A stretch of DNA of 37,091 nucleotides from a virus. The notes under the pieces were generated by a model that had not been told where the DNA came from, searched no databases, and saw only the letters and a list, made by a program, of their open reading frames with translations. Made by a program: the position numbers and the translations under genes. Within the stretch, counting starts at the first letter, position 1; each line of letters opens with the position of its first letter. The stretch covers positions 1 through 37,091 of IMG/VR virus record IMGVR_UViG_3300033149_000442, one strand, 5' to 3'. Below are positions 614 through 37,091 of the stretch, in pieces.

Positions 614-817
614 ATGGCAAAGAATATCACAGTATTAGCAACAGGTGGAACACCAAAAGTAGTTGAAGTATCTACAGTGCAACAAGCATACGATGCACTT
701 AACCTTACTGGTGCAATGACAGCGACAGTTAACGGCGAACCTGCAAACATGACAGATTCAGTATCTGATTTTGCACACGTATCATTTTCTGCTCAAGTAA
801 AGGGTGGAAACAAGTAA
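614..817 (+). CDS. Ubiquitin-like modifier (Prok_Ub / PRTRC protein C-like)
   Basis: A 67-aa protein starting MAKNITVLATGG. Alternating strands (ITVLA, KVVEV), a helix (VQQAYDAL) and further strands (TATVNGE, HVSFSAQVK) fit a small beta-grasp fold. The C-terminus ends VKGGNK: Gly64-Gly65 followed by Asn-Lys. This resembles ubiquitin-like precursors that must be trimmed after Gly-Gly before E1 activation. The start has a strong AAGGAGAA ribosome-binding site. The next three genes code an E2-like protein, a JAMM peptidase and an E1, in the order of PRTRC cassettes (C, B, A, ThiF), which is the strongest support. A terminator directly follows the gene. Sequence alone could also fit a ThiS/MoaD-type sulfur carrier, but the E2 neighbour argues for protein conjugation. 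Confidence 0.72.
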   Translation: MAKNITVLATGGTPKVVEVSTVQQAYDALNLTGAMTATVNGEPANMTDSVSDFAHVSFSAQVKGGNK

Positions 818-863
818 TTATTATTAACTATATAGTTTAATTATAATTCATCTTCTTTTTGAC

Positions 864-913
864 AACCCCCCGATCTTACTAACTACTACACATAGCGTTT
901 GTCGGGGGTTTTT
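864..913 (+). terminator. Rho-independent terminator after the Ubl gene
   Basis: AACCCCCCGA (864-873) can pair with TCGGGGGTTTT (902-912), followed by a T-run to 913. The loop is long (about 28 nt). It sits between the Ubl gene and the E2-like gene, so it should attenuate rather than block the cassette. This would leave Ubl transcripts more abundant than those for the enzymes. Confidence 0.7.
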
Positions 914-933
914 ATTAACTAAACGGAGTATTT

Positions 934-2700
934 ATGGGCAAGAAATACGCAGATTATACAGTGGATGATCTAGTTAGGTTAGATTTATCCTTCTTATTGA
1001 AAGATAAGACAGATGAAGAGAAAGTCGCTCAACGTGACGCTTTCATCTATTTAAAGAATACAGCACGTAGCTGTCGTATAGACATAGGCAATTGGAAACT
1101 ATTGGAAATGTTTGGTGATGGTACGTCTAGCAATATGGTCACAGATAAGGCTAAGATCAATGAGATACTGTTTAGCCGTATCCATGAGTCGAAGGAAGCG
1201 GACGCTACTAATGGCCTAGGGTTTTCATTACTTGGTAATTTCAAGGGTGAGATACTAGAGGCTACTAAGGTTGATTACGATTCCGTTATTAGGAGCCATA
1301 AGAGAGACTTGGAATCAGTGAATACATATCTGACTGACTATCAGAATCGTGTAAATAAGTATATCCGTAGAGCTAGGAATCATCATAAGGAGATTGATGA
1401 GCTAGAGGCTAAGAAATTAGCGGGTATTGCAGACGATACTGTTTATAAAGCAGTACAGCAGATATTATCTAACCCTTACTGGCAATTCATCGGTATTAAG
1501 GACGATGGTAATAAGTTATTGTTCGCTACTACTGAGTATGTGAAGCAATCATTGGTAAATCCGGCCGCAGGGATTAATATACATGTGGAGTATGGTGTTT
1601 ACTACGTAGAGATTAATTTAACCGGAAAGCTTATAAATTGCTACCCGTACATGGATTCGTTGTATGTTTATAATCCGCACCCTCATGTGAGTAGTGGAGG
1701 TACTATATGTTGGGGTAATTACAGTTCTACGGTTCAAGAACATATAGGAGCTGATAGATGGAAAGATGTAATGGATATTTTACAGACGTTATTAACTACA
1801 TACTGCGGTGATAATCCATATACAGCTATTGAAACAATTAATGATTATTATAAGACGTTATTCACACCGCCTGAACAGGTAGATTCAGCTTCTATACTTG
1901 AACAGGTATTTTCAGGTTCAAGTGAGGAGAGCCATAGGCGAGTGATTACTAAGGGTAATTTGGATATGGATACTTATCCGCTCCATGTAACACCGACTCG
2001 TGATGTACCTATCTATTTACCTGCTAATTCATCTTTAGATGAGACACATGAGGATTATCCTTTTATGGCTTATACTCTATCAGGACGTGAGGAAGGGTTA
2101 TTCATCTGGAACATGGAACATAGACGTTTGTATATGACAATGAAGCATAGTGACACACCTGACAGGATTAAGGCTGTGCGTATGTGTTCTGATAGTTCCG
2201 CTAGTGTGTTTGTAGGCCGCGAAGGTGAGATGAATTATAATAAATTTAAGGTGTTTAAGAGTTATAAACACATGCTTAATTCAATACCATTCATGGGTCA
2301 GTCTTTTAGAGAGGAACATGTATTAGATGTGTTCAACTCACATGGTATTTTCATTGGTTCACCTATCGCTAAGATTAGAGAGGATGGGAGTATCCGACGC
2401 AATGGTATACTTAGATCGTTTAACGGTAGACCTACTACTAATAGCTTCTTTAGTGATTACTGGAGTAATGCTACATTTATCTACGGGTATGGTAGTAGCG
2501 ATTGTTACTTCGAGTCAATAGTCCCTCGACCACTTAGAGGTGAGAGTAAGGTCGATTACATAGATAGATTAGAGAAGTATAAATGCAAACTAGCAGAACG
2601 AGGTAACAGGATAATATGTGAGGATAATTGGTCAGTGGCATTAGGTAATTTACTAGACGAGTGGACTAAGATTAATGGAGAGGAATCAAATGAAAGTTAA
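934..2700 (+). CDS. E2-like ubiquitin-conjugating protein (Prok-E2 family D / PRTRC protein B-like), long form
   Basis: 588 aa. Residues 248-262 read PHPHVSSGGTICWGN, matching the UBC-fold active-site signature (HPH...G-x-I-C) with Cys259 as the expected thioester residue and His249/His251 upstream. The C-W-G-N ending resembles PRTRC protein B as I remember that family. Residues 120-165 are charged and helical, probably coiled. The part after about residue 330 (260 residues) has no domain I recognise; it is rich in Tyr, Ser and Gly and contains an FIWNMEHRRLYMTMKHSD strand-like segment. The protein is much longer than a minimal E2 (about 150 aa), so it may carry substrate or Ubl recognition parts. 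Its 3' end overlaps the JAMM gene by 11 bp. Expected role: accept Ubl from the E1 at 3583 and pass it to a target. Confidence 0.7.
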   Translation: MGKKYADYTVDDLVRLDLSFLLKDKTDEEKVAQRDAFIYLKNTARSCRIDIGNWKLLEMFGDGTSSNMVTDKAKINEILFSRIHESKEADATNGLGFSLLGNFKGEILEATKVDYDSVIRSHKRDLESVNTYLTDYQNRVNKYIRRARNHHKEIDELEAKKLAGIADDTVYKAVQQILSNPYWQFIGIKDDGNKLLFATTEYVKQSLVNPAAGINIHVEYGVYYVEINLTGKLINCYPYMDSLYVYNPHPHVSSGGTICWGNYSSTVQEHIGADRWKDVMDILQTLLTTYCGDNPYTAIETINDYYKTLFTPPEQVDSASILEQVFSGSSEESHRRVITKGNLDMDTYPLHVTPTRDVPIYLPANSSLDETHEDYPFMAYTLSGREEGLFIWNMEHRRLYMTMKHSDTPDRIKAVRMCSDSSASVFVGREGEMNYNKFKVFKSYKHMLNSIPFMGQSFREEHVLDVFNSHGIFIGSPIAKIREDGSIRRNGILRSFNGRPTTNSFFSDYWSNATFIYGYGSSDCYFESIVPRPLRGESKVDYIDRLEKYKCKLAERGNRIICEDNWSVALGNLLDEWTKINGEESNES

Positions 2701-3586
2701 AATACCATACGAATTACATGATAAAATTATGTTCTTCGTTCATAAAAGTAGTATCGAAATAAGCATGATGGCACGTATAAAGAAAGAGAAGGATACCTTC
2801 ATACTTACTAACGTGTATTTATTAGATCAAGAGAATACAGCTACCTCTACAGACATTGATGCTACGGCATTAGGTAAGCTGATGTATGAGAGTAGAGAGG
2901 ACGAGGGATTCCTGAATTGTTGGATACATTCTCACGTAAACATGGGTGTGTTCTGGTCGGGGACTGATAAGGATACTATTAAGGAGTTCGGGAGCAATGG
3001 CTTCCTACTCTCCCTAGTATTTAATAAGAAGGGTGAGGTTAGGGCGCATTACTTCCAAGGAGAGCAAGGTGCAGACTCACCGCTTCCTTGGCTAGAGATT
3101 GACGATATACCTGTAGAGATTACATACCCTACAGTTAAAGGTAGAAAAGATTGGGAGAAGGAGTATAGGGAGAAGTGTAGAACTAAAACTTATAATCAAT
3201 CAACATTACCAATGCCGGGAAAGCATCATACCACCACCTTTCCGAACAGCAACTTTGGTGGGAAGAGTGGTGGGAAGCTCAAAGAACAAGCGACTTTAGC
3301 TACTGAAAGAGAACATGGCATGATTAATCCTAAGAACATTAACCAACGGTGGCACACTAACCAATATGGTAAAGGTTCCTGGATGAATTATAAGAAGTTT
3401 GTAAGGAACAACGCTTGGTATGATTCACTTAATGTACTTGACCAGTTAGACGGTGCAAGGAACGCATGGATTAAAATTTATCAGAGAGATAAAGGTGAGA
3501 TGCCACTAGATGATTATGCAGTTAATGACTTCTATATGGAGGTTAAGAAGATGAGTCCTATGGATTTCTATGAGGAGGTAGTATGA
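2690..3586 (+). CDS. JAMM/JAB metallopeptidase (PRTRC protein A-like deubiquitinase)
   Basis: 298 aa from the ATG at 2690, which has GGAGAGG six bases upstream; an ATG at 2675 overlaps that site and is less likely. The JAMM zinc signature is complete: His80-Ser-His82, seven residues, Ser90, two residues, Asp93, with Glu23 on an early strand as the likely catalytic acid. The JAB domain fills about residues 1-150. A Lys/Gly/His-rich linker (about 155-210) and a 90-residue C-terminal part with aromatic and helical character follow; I do not recognise it. Probable role: remove the Asn-Lys tail from the Ubl after Gly65 and/or cleave Ubl from targets. Stop and next start overlap as ATGA. Confidence 0.85.
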   Translation: MKVKIPYELHDKIMFFVHKSSIEISMMARIKKEKDTFILTNVYLLDQENTATSTDIDATALGKLMYESREDEGFLNCWIHSHVNMGVFWSGTDKDTIKEFGSNGFLLSLVFNKKGEVRAHYFQGEQGADSPLPWLEIDDIPVEITYPTVKGRKDWEKEYREKCRTKTYNQSTLPMPGKHHTTTFPNSNFGGKSGGKLKEQATLATEREHGMINPKNINQRWHTNQYGKGSWMNYKKFVRNNAWYDSLNVLDQLDGARNAWIKIYQRDKGEMPLDDYAVNDFYMEVKKMSPMDFYEEVV

Positions 3587-4257
3587 AAGCAAGTTACACA
3601 TTTAAAGATACGTTAGTACGTCAGTCGGATTTAATTCCGATTGATGTACTAAGTAAGAAGATAACTATCATTGGAGCAGGGGCCGTGGGTTCATGGACTG
3701 CTCTAGCATTAGCTAAGATGGGGTTCCTTAACCTTGAGATATGGGACGATGATGTTGTTAGTGTTGAGAATATGAACAACCAAATGTACCCGATCACATC
3801 AATAGATGAACCAAAGGTACAGGCATTAGGGGATATGATTAACATGTTCACTGGTCGCAGGGTTGTAACCATCAATGGTAGATATGAAGGGGAGAAATTA
3901 ACTGGGGATATAGTTATCTCCGCTGTTGATAATATGAAAGTCCGTAAAAGCATTTGGGATAATTCTCGAGCATCATGGCTTATAGACCCTCGAATGGGGG
4001 CTGAGTCTGCGCTGTTATATGTGATGAACCGACAAGACCCTGCTGATAAGGTTACTTATACCAAGACTTTACATACGGACGAAGAGGGGGTGCATGAGCC
4101 ATGTACTGCTAAGTCTACGATCTACTGCTCTAACTTCCTATCCGGTTTGGTAGCTAGGTCAGTGAAGCAGATAGCTACTGCATCTCCTCATACTAGAATC
4201 ATGCAGGCTAACCTGTCTGGTGCTGAGAATATTGTCCAGAGTTGGGGGAAGAAATAA
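3583..4257 (+). CDS. ThiF/E1-like adenylating enzyme (PRTRC ThiF-like), short form
   Basis: 224 aa, a single Rossmann-type adenylation domain. The ATP-binding loop is GAGAVGS at residues 31-37. Acidic residues Asp55-Asp57 precede VENMNNQ, and the conserved Asp116 and Arg121 are in SAVDNMKVR. Cys174 in EPCTAKSTIYC is the best candidate catalytic cysteine; Cys184 is nearby. Most ThiF/E1 proteins have Asn-x-x-Arg-Gln where this one has Asn63-Met-Asn-Asn66-Gln, so the usual nucleotide-contacting Arg is missing. There is no C-terminal ubiquitin-fold domain. Expected role: adenylate the Gly65 end of the Ubl and transfer it to the E2-like protein. It is the last gene of the cassette and is followed by a hairpin. 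Confidence 0.85.
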   Translation: MKASYTFKDTLVRQSDLIPIDVLSKKITIIGAGAVGSWTALALAKMGFLNLEIWDDDVVSVENMNNQMYPITSIDEPKVQALGDMINMFTGRRVVTINGRYEGEKLTGDIVISAVDNMKVRKSIWDNSRASWLIDPRMGAESALLYVMNRQDPADKVTYTKTLHTDEEGVHEPCTAKSTIYCSNFLSGLVARSVKQIATASPHTRIMQANLSGAENIVQSWGKK

Positions 4258-7358: not shown

Positions 7359-8824
7359 AGTTTAAATTAAAACCATACCCTCACCAGATGTATGCTATTG
7401 ATATGGCAAAACGTCTAGGTAATGTAGGATTACTATGGGAAATGGGGGCAGGTAAAACTGGTGGACTTATAAATATTTTGCGTGATCTATACGCCACCGA
7501 TGGGAGGCTTAAGAGAACCTTAATCCTCTCACCTGCTGTTACCCTATATAACTGGAAAGAAGAGTTTGGTATCCATTCATACGTACCAAAAGAGTACATA
7601 CATGTACTGTCTAAGGGCGGTAGTAAGGGCAAGATTCGGGAGTTTGTCAAGTACGCCATGAACCCTACGACAAAGGCTATGGACGGCCATCATATATTCA
7701 TCACTAACTATGAGTCGATGAATAGTGAGGAGCTGTTTAAGTTACTAATGGAGTGGAACCCAGAGATAATGGTACTGGATGAAGCCCACTATATAAAGAA
7801 CCCCCAAGCTAAGAGATCGAAGGCGATCATCAAACTTGGAGACAAGGTTAAGCATAAGTATATCTTGACAGGTACACCTATCCTTAACTCAATACAAGAT
7901 GTGTATAACCTATTCAGATTCCTTGATGGTGGTGAGACATTCGGAAAGAACTTCCATGTGTTCAGACATACATACATGGAAGATGAGAACCAAGGTTGGT
8001 CAGGTAAGAAGGGACACTTCCCAAAATTTGTAGCTAGGTCTGAGATGTACGGCCACATGACTGACTTGATATACACCAAGTGCCACCGAGTCTTGAAGGC
8101 TGATGTGATTAAAGACCTGCCACCACTGATTAAAACTACTCGACTGATAGAGATGTCACCGGAGCAGAAGAAACACTATAAACTAATGGAGCGAGACTTT
8201 ATAACCTTTGTTGAATCTAAAGAGAAATCAGGGGAGTCAGCGGCAGTGGTTGCACAGTTAGCAGTTACCAAAGCATTAAGACTACAGCAGATTGCATCAG
8301 GTTTCCTACAGACAGAGGAAGGTGAGGTGATTGAGATTACCAAGAACCCAAGACTTGACGTTACCAAGGAACTACTACAGGAATTAGTGGTTGATGGTAA
8401 GAATAAGGTAATACTGTGGTGTTCATTTAAACATAACTATAAACAACTGAGTCGTATATGTACTGAACTAGGTATTAAGCATGGCTTTATAACAGGGGAG
8501 CAGAAGCTTGAAGACAAACAAAAAGCAATGGATGAGTTTAACAAAGGGGATGACTCCGTGGTCATTGCCAATAGGAGAGCTGGGGGTATTGGTATTAACC
8601 TCGTCGCTGCTGCTTATTCTATTGTATATTCTAGAAACTTCTCATTAGGTGAGGAGCTACAGTCTGAGGCACGTAACCATAGAGGTGGGTCACAGATACA
8701 TGAGCAGATAGTTAAGATTGATTTAGCTTCCAAGGACACAGTAGACGAACTGGTACTTGAGGCTCTGATAAATAAGAACGATGTTAGTAAACAGGTCATT
8801 GACCTAGTAAGGAGAAAGAGATGA
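7355..8824 (+). CDS. SNF2-like superfamily 2 DNA helicase/ATPase
   Basis: 489 aa. Residues 6-12 (KPYPHQM) look like the Q-type entry motif. Walker A is EMGAGKT with Lys34, and Walker B is the DEAH box at 142-145 in VLDEAHYIKNP. Motif III is ILTGTPI. The second RecA domain includes VILWCSF and an ending motif SEARNHRGGSQ, corresponding to motif VI. The DEAH-x-hydrophobic-KN sequence and compact length fit phage SNF2-type translocases found near DNA polymerase genes. It may remodel replication forks or strip proteins from DNA. ATGA overlaps join it to genes on both sides. Confidence 0.9.
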   Translation: MKFKLKPYPHQMYAIDMAKRLGNVGLLWEMGAGKTGGLINILRDLYATDGRLKRTLILSPAVTLYNWKEEFGIHSYVPKEYIHVLSKGGSKGKIREFVKYAMNPTTKAMDGHHIFITNYESMNSEELFKLLMEWNPEIMVLDEAHYIKNPQAKRSKAIIKLGDKVKHKYILTGTPILNSIQDVYNLFRFLDGGETFGKNFHVFRHTYMEDENQGWSGKKGHFPKFVARSEMYGHMTDLIYTKCHRVLKADVIKDLPPLIKTTRLIEMSPEQKKHYKLMERDFITFVESKEKSGESAAVVAQLAVTKALRLQQIASGFLQTEEGEVIEITKNPRLDVTKELLQELVVDGKNKVILWCSFKHNYKQLSRICTELGIKHGFITGEQKLEDKQKAMDEFNKGDDSVVIANRRAGGIGINLVAAAYSIVYSRNFSLGEELQSEARNHRGGSQIHEQIVKIDLASKDTVDELVLEALINKNDVSKQVIDLVRRKR

Positions 8825-9291
8825 TTGAGGCGAATGAGTTTGACACAGTAGACACAGAGATAACAACACAACAGATGGATGATGCTCTGATTGAGTTCCA
8901 TGAAGCGAAGCGTGAGTATGATGAGGCTAAGTCTGAGTCCAATGCTAAGCATGGGTTGATGGAAGAAAAGAAGTATGTTCTAATGGAGATGCTTAAAGCC
9001 ACTGGCAAATCTAAGTACCAAGTAGATGGTCATGGTACAGCATCACTTAATGAGAAATTAAAAGTAACAACACCTAAAGATGTAGAGTCTAAGCAAGCGT
9101 TGTTTGAATGGTTGAAGAGTAAGCATGGCGACATCGGAGCTACCGCACTGATGAGTGTTAATGCCAATACACTTAACAAGATATTCAATGATGCTTTCCA
9201 AGAAGCTAAGGAAGAAGGAACGGCTGATACCTTTGAGATTCCGGGGCTAGGTCAGGGTGAAGTAGTGCATACACTATCGTTTAGGAAATAG
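8821..9291 (+). CDS. Unknown phage protein with coiled N-terminus
   Basis: 156 aa. Residues 15-62 are strongly helical and charged (DEAKSESNAKHGLMEEKK), likely a coiled coil. The second half contains TGKSKYQVDGHGTASLNEKL and a helical segment, ending GEVVHTLSFRK. I have the impression that similar proteins occur next to helicase and SSB genes in other phages, but I cannot name a family. It overlaps the helicase gene by 4 bp. Confidence 0.75.
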   Translation: MIEANEFDTVDTEITTQQMDDALIEFHEAKREYDEAKSESNAKHGLMEEKKYVLMEMLKATGKSKYQVDGHGTASLNEKLKVTTPKDVESKQALFEWLKSKHGDIGATALMSVNANTLNKIFNDAFQEAKEEGTADTFEIPGLGQGEVVHTLSFRK

Positions 9292-9614: not shown

Positions 9615-10358
9615 ATGACTAAGAAGAATGAAGTAGTAAAAGCAGAAGCAAATGAAATCTCAGCAGCAGACTCAGCAGCTATGATGGATATGTTTGGCGA
9701 TTCACCTGTATCATCTAACGATGTTATCATCCCTAAGATTAGAGTAATGCAACCCGGTTCAGCATTAGTGACAGACGGAGCCGCTAAGTTTGGTGACTTC
9801 GTAGATTCATTAACTAATGAAGTGATAGGTAACATTGCTGAGGCTCCAATAGAATTAATCCCATTCTATGTAGAAAAAATCTGGATTATCTCTAAGTGGA
9901 ACGGTGCTAAGTTTGAGTTTGATAAGGTTGAACCAATCACTCCTATGAATGAGAACAAGCAATGGGAAGAGGACACAGCTCAAGGTAAATTTAAAAACGA
10001 AAGATGCTTCAACTTCTACTGCCTAGATCCGAAGGATACTGGACTACCAGTAATCGTAGCCTTCAAAGGTTCATCTATGAGATCAGGTAGAGAGCTTATG
10101 ACACAGATGTATGTTAAGAACAGGGCAGCAGGTAAAGCTCCTTGTGCCAAGGTGATAGGAATATCTGGTGACAAGATTTCTAATGACAAAGGTACATACG
10201 CTGTACTTAAAACTTCTACTGTTAGAGATACTAACATGGAAGAGATGGAGAAGTGTTTAGAGTGGTTCAAAGCAGTACAATCAGGTGATGCTAAAGCAGA
10301 CAACTCTGACGTAATGGAAACAAAACCTCAAGCAACAGAAGTTAAACCACAGTTCTAA
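9615..10358 (+). CDS. Putative single-stranded DNA-binding protein
   Basis: 247 aa. After a polar N-terminus (1-37) comes VIIPKIRVMQPGSALVTDG and strand-rich sequence (PIELIPFYVEKIWIISKW). The centre holds SSMRSGRELMTQMYVK, and the tail is polar and acidic, ending in phenylalanine (EVKPQF). The acidic C-terminus with a final aromatic residue parallels T7 gp2.5 and other SSBs. Its place between helicase and polymerase genes fits. The family is widespread in phages, usually unnamed; the SSB call is an inference. A terminator directly follows, suggesting high expression of this gene. Confidence 0.55.
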   Translation: MTKKNEVVKAEANEISAADSAAMMDMFGDSPVSSNDVIIPKIRVMQPGSALVTDGAAKFGDFVDSLTNEVIGNIAEAPIELIPFYVEKIWIISKWNGAKFEFDKVEPITPMNENKQWEEDTAQGKFKNERCFNFYCLDPKDTGLPVIVAFKGSSMRSGRELMTQMYVKNRAAGKAPCAKVIGISGDKISNDKGTYAVLKTSTVRDTNMEEMEKCLEWFKAVQSGDAKADNSDVMETKPQATEVKPQF

Positions 10359-35440: not shown

Positions 35441-35628
35441 TACTTACTCGCTTTCTTTTTAGATACCTTCTTCTTAGCTTTCTTCTTCACTACTGGCTTC
35501 TCCTCAGTCTTCGGTTCCTCCGATTTCTGCTCCGATAGCTTCAATAGCTTCTTCTCTTCCGCTTCCTTCTGCTCCATGAACGTGTTGAATGGAATCCTCT
35601 GACCGTTCACCAATACAAATTTCTTCAT
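35440..35628 (-). CDS. Small Lys-rich protein
   Basis: 62 aa, MKKFVLVNGQRIPFNTFMEQ then Glu/Lys-rich sequence ending in an extremely basic tail (KKKAKKKVSKKKASK). The tail resembles histone-like DNA- or RNA-binding tails. AGAGGT seven bases before the ATG supports translation. It overlaps the end of the small terminase gene by 125 bp in another frame, which is unusual. Its last 64 bp are free of overlap. Confidence 0.55.
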   Translation of the reverse strand: MKKFVLVNGQRIPFNTFMEQKEAEEKKLLKLSEQKSEEPKTEEKPVVKKKAKKKVSKKKASK

Positions 35629-36142
35629 TATTTACCTCTATAGTAGTTGGTTCTCTATTTATTCCAGTGTTTATTACAATCATAGCAGGAGCCGCGCTCT
35701 GCTGCAACACTTGTGGTTTAGCATTGAAAGCCTCTGGATTGCCACGTTCCGCTAATTTGAGGAATCCGTCGAACTGTAACTTATGCCCCGGAACTTCCTC
35801 CTTACTTGCACCATCCGCTCCCTTAAGTACCTCAACTGCTTTATCGTGGTAGTATTCTGCTCTATCCTTCCTAGCTATCTCCAAATTCTTTTTAAAATCT
35901 GGGTGGAATCTGCGCCAATTATACATTAAATGTAGAGGCGGCATCCCCTCAATCTCTGATATCTCATTCAGAGTCTTCCCTTCCCTCACCAAGTTGCAGA
36001 TCGCTTCCGCTATTTCCAAACTGTAGACGAAACTTGCGACGAGTCTCCCTGATGTCGCTACCAGTTCCCCTGTGTGGATATTGAATGTCTCTAATTCTTT
36101 TGTCTGCTTGTTTAGCAGTGTCATTGTGCTGCTTGTTTCCAA
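35504..36142 (-). CDS. Terminase small subunit (putative)
   Basis: 212 aa from a TTG start at 36142, chosen because a perfect GGAGG lies five bases upstream; the next ATG is at 36124. Residues 45-95 look like a helix-turn-helix plus helices: ICNLVREGKTLNEISEIEGM, then WRRFHPDFKKNLEIARKDRA. That pattern is typical of phage small terminases. The C-terminal 45 residues are acidic. It should recognise the packaging site. It is the first secure late gene, 180 bp downstream of a terminator. Confidence 0.7.
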   Translation of the reverse strand: METSSTMTLLNKQTKELETFNIHTGELVATSGRLVASFVYSLEIAEAICNLVREGKTLNEISEIEGMPPLHLMYNWRRFHPDFKKNLEIARKDRAEYYHDKAVEVLKGADGASKEEVPGHKLQFDGFLKLAERGNPEAFNAKPQVLQQSAAPAMIVINTGINREPTTIEVNNEEICIGERSEDSIQHVHGAEGSGREEAIEAIGAEIGGTED

Positions 36143-36287
36143 GGTTACCTCCCTTATGAAGACCTTTCTTTAGCTTCCTGACAACATTAGTCAGGTATCT
36201 ATAGCGTCGATTCGCTTTTTTTAATTTATTCCTTAGCTCTTTATTCTCTTCCCAGAGCTTCTTCAATAGTTCTTGCTCTTTATCCAT
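35964..36287 (-). CDS. Possible small coiled protein overlapping the small terminase gene
   Basis: ATG at 36287 opens MDKEQELLKKLWEENKELRN, a charged coiled helix, then basic sequence; 107 aa in all. No ribosome-binding site is visible. More than half lies inside the small terminase gene in another frame. The N-terminal half looks like protein, the C-terminal half like shadow sequence. It may be real, or chance. Confidence 0.3.
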   Translation of the reverse strand: MDKEQELLKKLWEENKELRNKLKKANRRYRYLTNVVRKLKKGLHKGGNLGNKQHNDTAKQADKRIRDIQYPHRGTGSDIRETRRKFRLQFGNSGSDLQLGEGREDSE

Positions 36288-36321
36288 AACATAGCGTAGC
36301 AGTGTCGCCAAGAAAAAGGAA

Positions 36322-36346
36322 GCCCCAGCTCATGGAAAACTGGGGC
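36322..36346 (-). terminator. Rho-independent terminator upstream of the late block
   Basis: GCCCCAG (36322-36328) pairs with CTGGGGC (36340-36346), loop 11 nt, followed on the - strand by TTCCTTTTTCTT. Transcripts entering from 36350 and beyond must pass it to reach the terminase and structural genes. Confidence 0.8.
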
Positions 36347-36377
36347 GGCGAACTAAGAGTTTTTCTGGCGAAGAAAA

Positions 36378-36430
36378 GACACTACTCAATGCTATACGGT
36401 TTACTGTTTTAGGTCATTGGGTAGTGCGTC
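36378..36430. repeat. Long-armed inverted repeat in the divergent region
   Basis: GACACTACTCAATG (36378-36391) and CATTGGGTAGTGCGTC (36415-36430) are inverted copies apart from a 2-base gap and one mismatch. They flank 23 bp. A TATAAT (36435-36440) lies just outside. Candidate operator or cruciform in the region between the two transcription blocks. Confidence 0.5.
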
Positions 36431-36499
36431 ATAGTATAATCGGTTTTTTGGTCTGTAGGCTAGGGGTGACCTATCGATGCCCTACAAGTTATAAAGGGG

Positions 36500-36571
36500 G
36501 GAGCCCCGACCCGCTAAAGCGCGCGCATACGCGCCCACGCGCCCGCGATGAATGAACGGGTGCGCCCGTGC
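36500..36571. other. GC-rich island in an AT-rich genome
   Basis: Roughly 70 bp dense in GCGC and CGCG steps, including two ACGCGCCC copies and ACGGGTGCGCCCGT, which can form a 5-bp stem. The composition differs sharply from the rest. No gene is present. Candidate origin, packaging or regulatory element. Confidence 0.5.
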
Positions 36572-36580
36572 TATACATAT

Positions 36581-36676
36581 CCCGTGGGATCAATTCGATA
36601 CTACCCTGTGGAGTCAATCTGACACTGACTGGTGTCACAATGCACCGCCGGTTCGGTGTCACATCGACACTAGGCT
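36581..36676. repeat. Degenerate 24-bp repeat (iteron-like) array
   Basis: Blocks at 36581 and 36605 align over 22 bp with six differences, all transitions. TCA-N4-GA(T/C)ACT-type cores lie at 36590-36602, 36614-36626 and 36659-36671. GGTGTCACA occurs at 36631-36639 and 36655-36663, again 24 bp apart. Dyads TGACAC-N6-GTGTCA (36620-36637) and GTGTC-N5-GACAC (36656-36670) are embedded. It may be a replication origin or binding sites for an activator of the promoter at 36701. Confidence 0.55.
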
Positions 36677-36700
36677 ACCTGATTTCAGCTACTTACAACT

Positions 36701-36716
36701 TGGCACAGGGCTTGCT
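36701..36716 (+). promoter_or_regulatory. Near-consensus sigma-54 promoter (-24/-12) for the early block
   Basis: TGGCACAGGGCTTGCT follows the sigma-54 pattern TGGCAC-R-N4-TTGC-W at every fixed position, with GG and GC separated by exactly 10 bp and a T before it. A start about 12 bp downstream, near 36727, would drive the + strand block, with repeat dyads 30-80 bp upstream in the usual place for activator sites. Confidence 0.6.
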
Positions 36717-36783
36717 TGTTAATTGGCAACGACATCATGGGCAATTGTGCTTGTGACAATATGCACTACTAAATCACGAACAG

Positions 36784-36948
36784 GTGAGGCGTAGGCACCT
36801 TTTAAGGGATGCGTACGACAAGCAAATAATTAAACCGGCAGATACTTACGCTAGGGTAAAGAAATTGGAAAAGTCTAAGAGATTAGTAGATAGATTATAC
36901 AACCAACTGCTAGATGCTTATGGAGTACCACCGTTACCAAAACAATAG
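36784..36948 (+). CDS. Small basic protein, first gene of the early block (putative)
   Basis: 54 aa from GTG at 36784, ending LDAYGVPPLPKQ at TAG 36946-36948. It is basic and helical (KKLEKSKRLVDRLYNQLL). No good ribosome-binding site is seen and the start is uncertain; the frame is open from 36757. It follows the sigma-54-like promoter and precedes the hexapeptide gene. Confidence 0.4.
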   Translation: MRRRHLLRDAYDKQIIKPADTYARVKKLEKSKRLVDRLYNQLLDAYGVPPLPKQ

Positions 36949-36952
36949 AACT

Positions 36953-36968
36953 TGGCATGATACGTGCA
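36953..36968 (+). promoter_or_regulatory. Second, weaker sigma-54-like element
   Basis: TGGCATGATACGTGCA has GG and GC exactly 10 bp apart and differs from the -24/-12 consensus at two positions. It lies about 60 bp before the hexapeptide gene start. A GTGAC-N6-GTCAC dyad follows at 36983-36998. Confidence 0.3.
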
Positions 36969-37030
36969 TAATAATAGTAAACGTGACGCTAATGTCACAT
37001 AATAGCCAAATAATGGCAAAGGATAGAATT

Positions 37031-37091
37031 ATGAGTATTTTCGATGGAATTAAGATTGACGTTGTTAAACCAGTAACAAGAGATGGAGAGG
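37031..37091 (+). CDS. 5' part of the hexapeptide-repeat protein (continues at base 1)
   Basis: ATG at 37031 follows a weak AGGAT ribosome-binding site. The visible part reads MSIFDGIKIDVVKPVTRDGE. The frame runs off the right edge with one base of the next codon (G). The first two bases of the window (AT) complete it to GAT, and the frame then continues as FYRIKALRDF. This exact continuity is the main evidence that the window is a circle cut inside this gene. A sigma-54-like element at 36953-36968 lies about 60 bp upstream. Confidence 0.8.
   Translation, partial: MSIFDGIKIDVVKPVTRDGE

Follow-up and report, generated by a model that had tools for sequence, protein, structure and literature searches.

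A putative enhancer-dependent sigma-54 promoter with tandem NorR-like sites ahead of the rightward genes of a podovirus clade

As a rule, phages drive their early genes from strong sigma-70 promoters that need no activator, and sigma-54 promoters remain silent without an ATP-driven activator. The DNA considered here (the window) is a viral record of 37,091 nucleotides in which a complete sigma-54 consensus match faces the rightward genes, raising the question of whether these genes could depend on such a promoter and, if so, which protein would activate it. An earlier note had read positions 36701–36716 on the + strand (TGGCACAGGGCTTGCT) as a complete −24/−12 element, and this reading holds on the grounds of both the full consensus match and its conservation within a clade of relatives. 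Nowhere else does the window match TGGCACN5TTGCW exactly, 100 dinucleotide shuffles of the same sequence giving a mean of 0.03, and the site satisfies the TGGCAYR-N4-TTGCW pattern in all respects (GG at −24/−25, GC at −12/−13, exact spacing). Allowing two mismatches yields seven sites against 7.1 expected, which is chance level, so that the full match alone is informative; the score matrix used for sigma-54 sites was set from the published consensus. The geometry of sigma-54 promoters predicts a transcription start at 36727 (+ strand), 12 nt past the C of the −12 GC and in agreement with the note, an inference for which there are no transcript data. A second, weaker sigma-54-like site with one mismatch (TGGCATGATACGTGCA, 36953–36968, + strand), absent from the note, lies 62 bp ahead of the start codon (ATG, 37031) and has a counterpart in the related contig L002; no dyads of the kind described below were found upstream of it.

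The position of the main site is also as the note had described it, within the divergent region and in the appropriate direction. It falls between the leftward small-terminase gene and the rightward genes. The former, terS (35504–36142, − strand; phrog_1482, E 1e-17), is the first gene of the leftward structural block, and the large divergent region separates leftward terminase and structural genes from rightward replication genes, which include a D5-type primase, a SNF2 helicase and a family A polymerase. The first possible frame past the promoter in the ORF list is a small one of 54 aa (36784–36948, + strand), which matched no protein family and shares 76% identity over 50 residues with its L002 counterpart. 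It is followed by the first substantial downstream gene, encoding a beta-solenoid protein (37031–37091, + strand, and on through the junction to 425; YdcK beta-solenoid repeats, E 1e-22). This ORF, rich in YdcK repeats, runs in frame from 37031 over the contig ends into ORF 3–425, so that the record represents a circularly closed genome and the sigma-54 site is internal to it. Position and gene content suggest that the rightward genes are probably early. No integrase or repressor gene was matched in the window, which is the only basis for inferring a strictly lytic phage.

Two other observations concern the rightward genes themselves. An operon at 614–4257 encodes, among its members, a 67-aa protein ending near GG and then a 588-aa protein, together with a protein resembling ThiF/E1 (E 9e-18) and another with a weak, below-cut-off resemblance to JAB (E 0.035), and is possibly a phage ubiquitin-like conjugation module; its gene order is kept in L004, L005 and L020. 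Elsewhere, 8821–9291 and 9615–10358 match the gp33-like and gp34-like families of phage Pam3.

Upstream of the sigma-54 site the note had mentioned inverted repeats, and these are not only real but more specific than stated, forming three tandem 11-bp dyads of the type GTCA-N3-TGAC spaced about 22 bp apart. The phage dyad sequence is GGTGTCANNNTGACACC, with outer bases GGTGTCA..TGACACC. Repeats were read from the 230 bp ahead of each sigma-54 site, their best form being GTGTCA-N3-TGACAC, and offsets are given relative to the T of TGGCA. In the window, the activator-type dyad 1 (GTCAATCTGAC, 36613–36623) begins 88 bp before the −24 element and dyad 3 (GTCACATCGAC, 36658–36668) begins 43 bp before it, while the intervening dyad 2 (GTCACAATGCA, 36634–36644, 67 bp before) is degenerate and nonetheless in phase with the other two; its counterparts are better preserved in L004, L017 and L013. 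A possible fourth, weak dyad (ATCAATTCGAT, 36589–36599, score 6.5) lies 112 bp ahead of the −24 element, on the same ~22-bp grid. The dyads are separated from the promoter by a spacer element (TGATTTCAGCTACTTAC, 36680–36696, + strand), found in nearly all clade promoters. Mismatches aside, it looks like an IHF site (WATCAANNNNTTR), and any function it has is a matter of inference only.

Since 0.03 matches are expected per window, some windows of a large scan will contain a full consensus match by chance, and a non-functional coincidence has to be weighed against the record of the relatives. These were diverged contigs recruited through large- and small-terminase searches. Counting near-identical pairs once, the clade comprises 11 members (the window, L004, L005, L013, L017, L031, L039, L042, L045/L046, L129/L130 and L295), the last being a distant member added later, after recovery by a pattern of two dyads plus a promoter that gave eight matches over all viral contigs, six of them in the clade. 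Members share only 38–67% identity in the promoter region (median 53%), and all 11 carry a sigma-54 site within 800 nt of the small-terminase start in matching place and direction, where shuffles predict 0.15; in the ten members other than L295 the same-direction site lies 365–717 nt upstream of that start. Phased dyads precede the sigma-54 site in ten of the 11, the exception being L005, in which the gap differs. A chance match is thus already contradicted by conservation and can hardly be entertained. The arrangement has limits: more distant terminase relatives (L010, L020, L021, L043, L044 and others) have no sigma-54 site at this place, and L138, L147, L154, L162 and L176 have the site without the 3-bp-gap array. 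Among isolates, the closest by large terminase are HTVC010P-type pelagiphages and Rhodoferax phage P26218 (42–48% identity), whose genomes are similar in size to the window. No phage isolate, these included, gave a DNA-level match, and the small terminase found no relatives among cultured isolates, its one weak match being to an uncultured record.

A sigma-54 enhancer is expected to present upstream activator-type sites helically phased to the promoter, and the window meets this description, with no binding data to accompany it. Across the clade, dyad starts settle on a grid near −88/−66/−44: −88, −67, −43 in the window; −87, −65, −44 in L004; −86, −65, −43 in L017; −89, −66, −44 in L013; −88, −68, −44 in L031; −90, −66, −47 in L130; −109, −90, −66, −47 in L042; −80, −60, −45 in L045; and −100, −80, −66 in L039. 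In L295, four GGTGTCACTTTGACCCC-type repeats are followed by CTCAGCTACTTACGACTTGGCACGGCAATTGCTT. Moreover, L004, L017, L042, L045 and L130 possess a second sigma-54-like site some 1.1–1.8 kb downstream, equipped with its own dyads. A sigma-54-like element facing the opposite way (TGGCATGAAACTTGCA, other strand) stands directly past the last dyad at the second promoters of L004, L130 and L042 and at the first of L039; it could be a divergent promoter, a decoy or another protein's site.

The dyads could instead be operators of a repressor or a replication protein, with an incidental sigma-54 match and a sigma-70 promoter driving the early genes. Repressor operators do often sit in divergent phage regulatory regions, and the conservation of the spacer element along with the dyads is compatible with such a role. 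Against this, the only sigma-70-like site in 35500–37091 is on the − strand and none was found on the + strand, no repressor was matched, the sigma-54 site is kept in every clade member, and across diverged phages the dyads hold their phase relative to the −24 element, appearing again at second promoters. We regard such operators as improbable. It is mainly because one architecture recurs at two places, and because of the phasing, that the dyads are read as an enhancer serving a promoter; as far as sequence can tell, dyads and sigma-54 site together are the anatomy of a sigma-54 enhancer.

Which activator would recognize this array is harder to decide. In published NorR enhancers, three GT-N7-AC sites stand in tandem ahead of a sigma-54 promoter (PMC1274295), and at norVW all three sites are essential (PMC2941729). 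In E. coli norV the dyads GTCAATTTGAC, GTCATATCGAC and GTCATTTTGAC lie at −111, −90 and −66, and the window shares both these dyads and their spacing of 21 and 24 bp. Similar arrays occur in norR-linked regions of other proteobacteria, with the last dyad mostly at −51 to −55 or −62 to −66; Salinimonas hmp carries GTGTCATTTTGACAC twice, no dyad was seen in the norR-linked region of Desulfosarcina, and that of Variovorax was left out of the dyad scoring. Within the window, GT-N7-AC fits dyads 1 and 3 and not the degenerate dyad 2, all three being in register, and the full three-dyad pattern is met in relatives such as L031 and, for most copies, L129/L130. A matrix of bacterial NorR dyads ranked dyads 3 and 1 first and second among all 37,091 positions. 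Across ten phages a gap of 3 bp was the best of gaps 0–9 (L005 alone favouring 6 bp), and scrambling the palindromic matrix 400 times never gave the observed sum, the best attempt coming close (−71.7 vs −73.6). As the bacterial dyads had been picked with the GTCA-N3-TGAC pattern, the matrix test is supportive and not fully independent.

This likeness does not single out NorR. With a control matrix built without E. coli, the norV dyads scored 16.9–17.4, the FhlA site at hyc/hyp (CGTGTCATTTCGACATC) nearly as high at 15.5, and ZraR about 10, so that the test for NorR-specificity was not passed; the dyad is, on the evidence of these scores, the mark of a group of related activators. PspF, NtrC and PrpR were rejected as its source, with best scores of no more than 4.3 with the NorR matrix, and PilR was considered, its site not being found in the literature searched. 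The sigma-54 promoter may therefore be real and respond to an FhlA-like or other host protein with the same recognition, and hence to another signal. L005 lends weight to this, as its half sites are the same and separated by 6 bp (TGTCA-N6-TGACA), so that activator identity may vary between hosts; L147 has the same gap, and in both cases this hints that the host concerned has a different activator. The NifA site, TGT-N10-ACA, was also considered and fits the L005 repeats only. Searching viral contigs for the 6-bp-gap pattern gave 60 matches, probably mostly due to chance because only the L147 contig was recognized, by its small terminase, as clade-related. What speaks against another activator is that a triple array with a ~22-bp period matches NorR promoters, whereas in E. 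coli, used as the control, the FhlA and ZraR promoters matched at only one or two dyads. Placement is a point against the main reading, since in many phage promoters the last dyad lies 43–47 bp before the −24 element as opposed to 51–66 in most bacterial ones, the usual phage position (−44) being about one helical turn nearer the promoter than in bacterial NorR arrays. On the strength of the tandem array and its spacing, and without binding data, NorR is the most likely activator at roughly even odds, and FhlA-like and other proteins of the same recognition jointly keep an appreciable, smaller share. Because the dyad is common to FhlA sites, NorR is favoured and not proven, and the promoter is best termed NorR-like.

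The activator is unlikely to come from the phage. Were it phage-encoded, a sigma-54 activator domain (PF00158) should appear in the genome; the domain is absent from the window and from 10 related records, several of which are only fragmentary, in keeping with the note's remark that no activator gene is seen, and no sigma-54 DNA-binding domain was found in the window. With no activator gene found in these phages, the protein should be the host's, as an inference. A separate observation was made in a huge virus (L298/G385, IMG/VR 3300028833_000001, 361,445 bases), which has 14 exact TTGGCAYRN5TGCW sites compared with one for a backwards-pattern control. Twelve of the 14 lie on one strand within ~18 kb (132859–151054) and the others at 256441 and 339845; most are followed by ATA-rich DNA, and one, accompanied by two GTCA-N3-TGRC dyads, stands ahead of a tRNA-His gene. 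A huge phage may thus possess a sigma-54 regulon, and the same genome has one PF00158 match, in an 850-aa frame.

The host of the window phage could not be named. No tRNA genes were found as a hint, the best terminase match in bacterial genomes (56%) is too distant, and a composite-pattern search of 369 sampled Gammaproteobacteria genomes returned seven matches that were uninformative on this point. If the sigma-54 and dyad assignments are correct, the host must possess rpoN and an activator recognizing GTCA-N3-TGAC, so enhancer and promoter provide a concrete handle on its identity.

A plausible sequence of events can be inferred. The host sigma-54 holoenzyme would bind 36701–36716 as a closed complex, and a host AAA+ enhancer-binding protein, as phasing and similarity suggest, would assemble as a hexamer on the dyads (36613–36668) and open it, the spacer element perhaps, speculatively, bending the DNA between them. 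Transcription would then start near 36727 and read the rightward genes, with RpoN being needed. With no transcript, binding or host data available, we still think it highly probable that the site forms the core of a sigma-54 promoter that depends on an enhancer and drives the podovirus's rightward genes, which lie on the replication side and are probably early. Since sigma-54 promoters are silent without their activator, a clade that keeps promoter and array would make the onset of infection dependent on a signalling protein of the host. Were this NorR, infection would be linked to nitric oxide and, through it, phage success to denitrification and nitrosative stress. That a clade of lytic-type podoviruses acquired a nitric oxide-responsive NorR enhancer and sigma-54 arrangement to gate its early genes is a proposal that we consider possible, though less likely than not; if true, the host would need nitric oxide or nitrogen-oxide respiration for infection to be productive.

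In bacteria, both sigma-54 promoters and NorR enhancers are already known. In the literature searched, no phage early promoter combined with an enhancer array of this kind was reported, which is weak evidence as most subscription journals were not covered. Phages of the Yuavirus group, which is a different phage group, are predicted to use host sigma-54 and are not known to carry tandem NorR-type enhancers. FhlA promoters (E. coli hyc/hyp) share the dyad core with the phage, and hyc-hyp has one strong dyad only, in contrast to the triple array. The NorR promoters (norVW in E. coli; norAB, hmp and nnrS elsewhere) have tandem GTCA-N3-TGAC dyads spaced ~19–26 bp apart upstream of a −24/−12 element, as in the phage, where, unlike in bacteria, the array occurs without a norR gene. 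Among the NorR-linked promoters, it is Salinimonas hmp that comes closest to the phage dyad in its outer bases.
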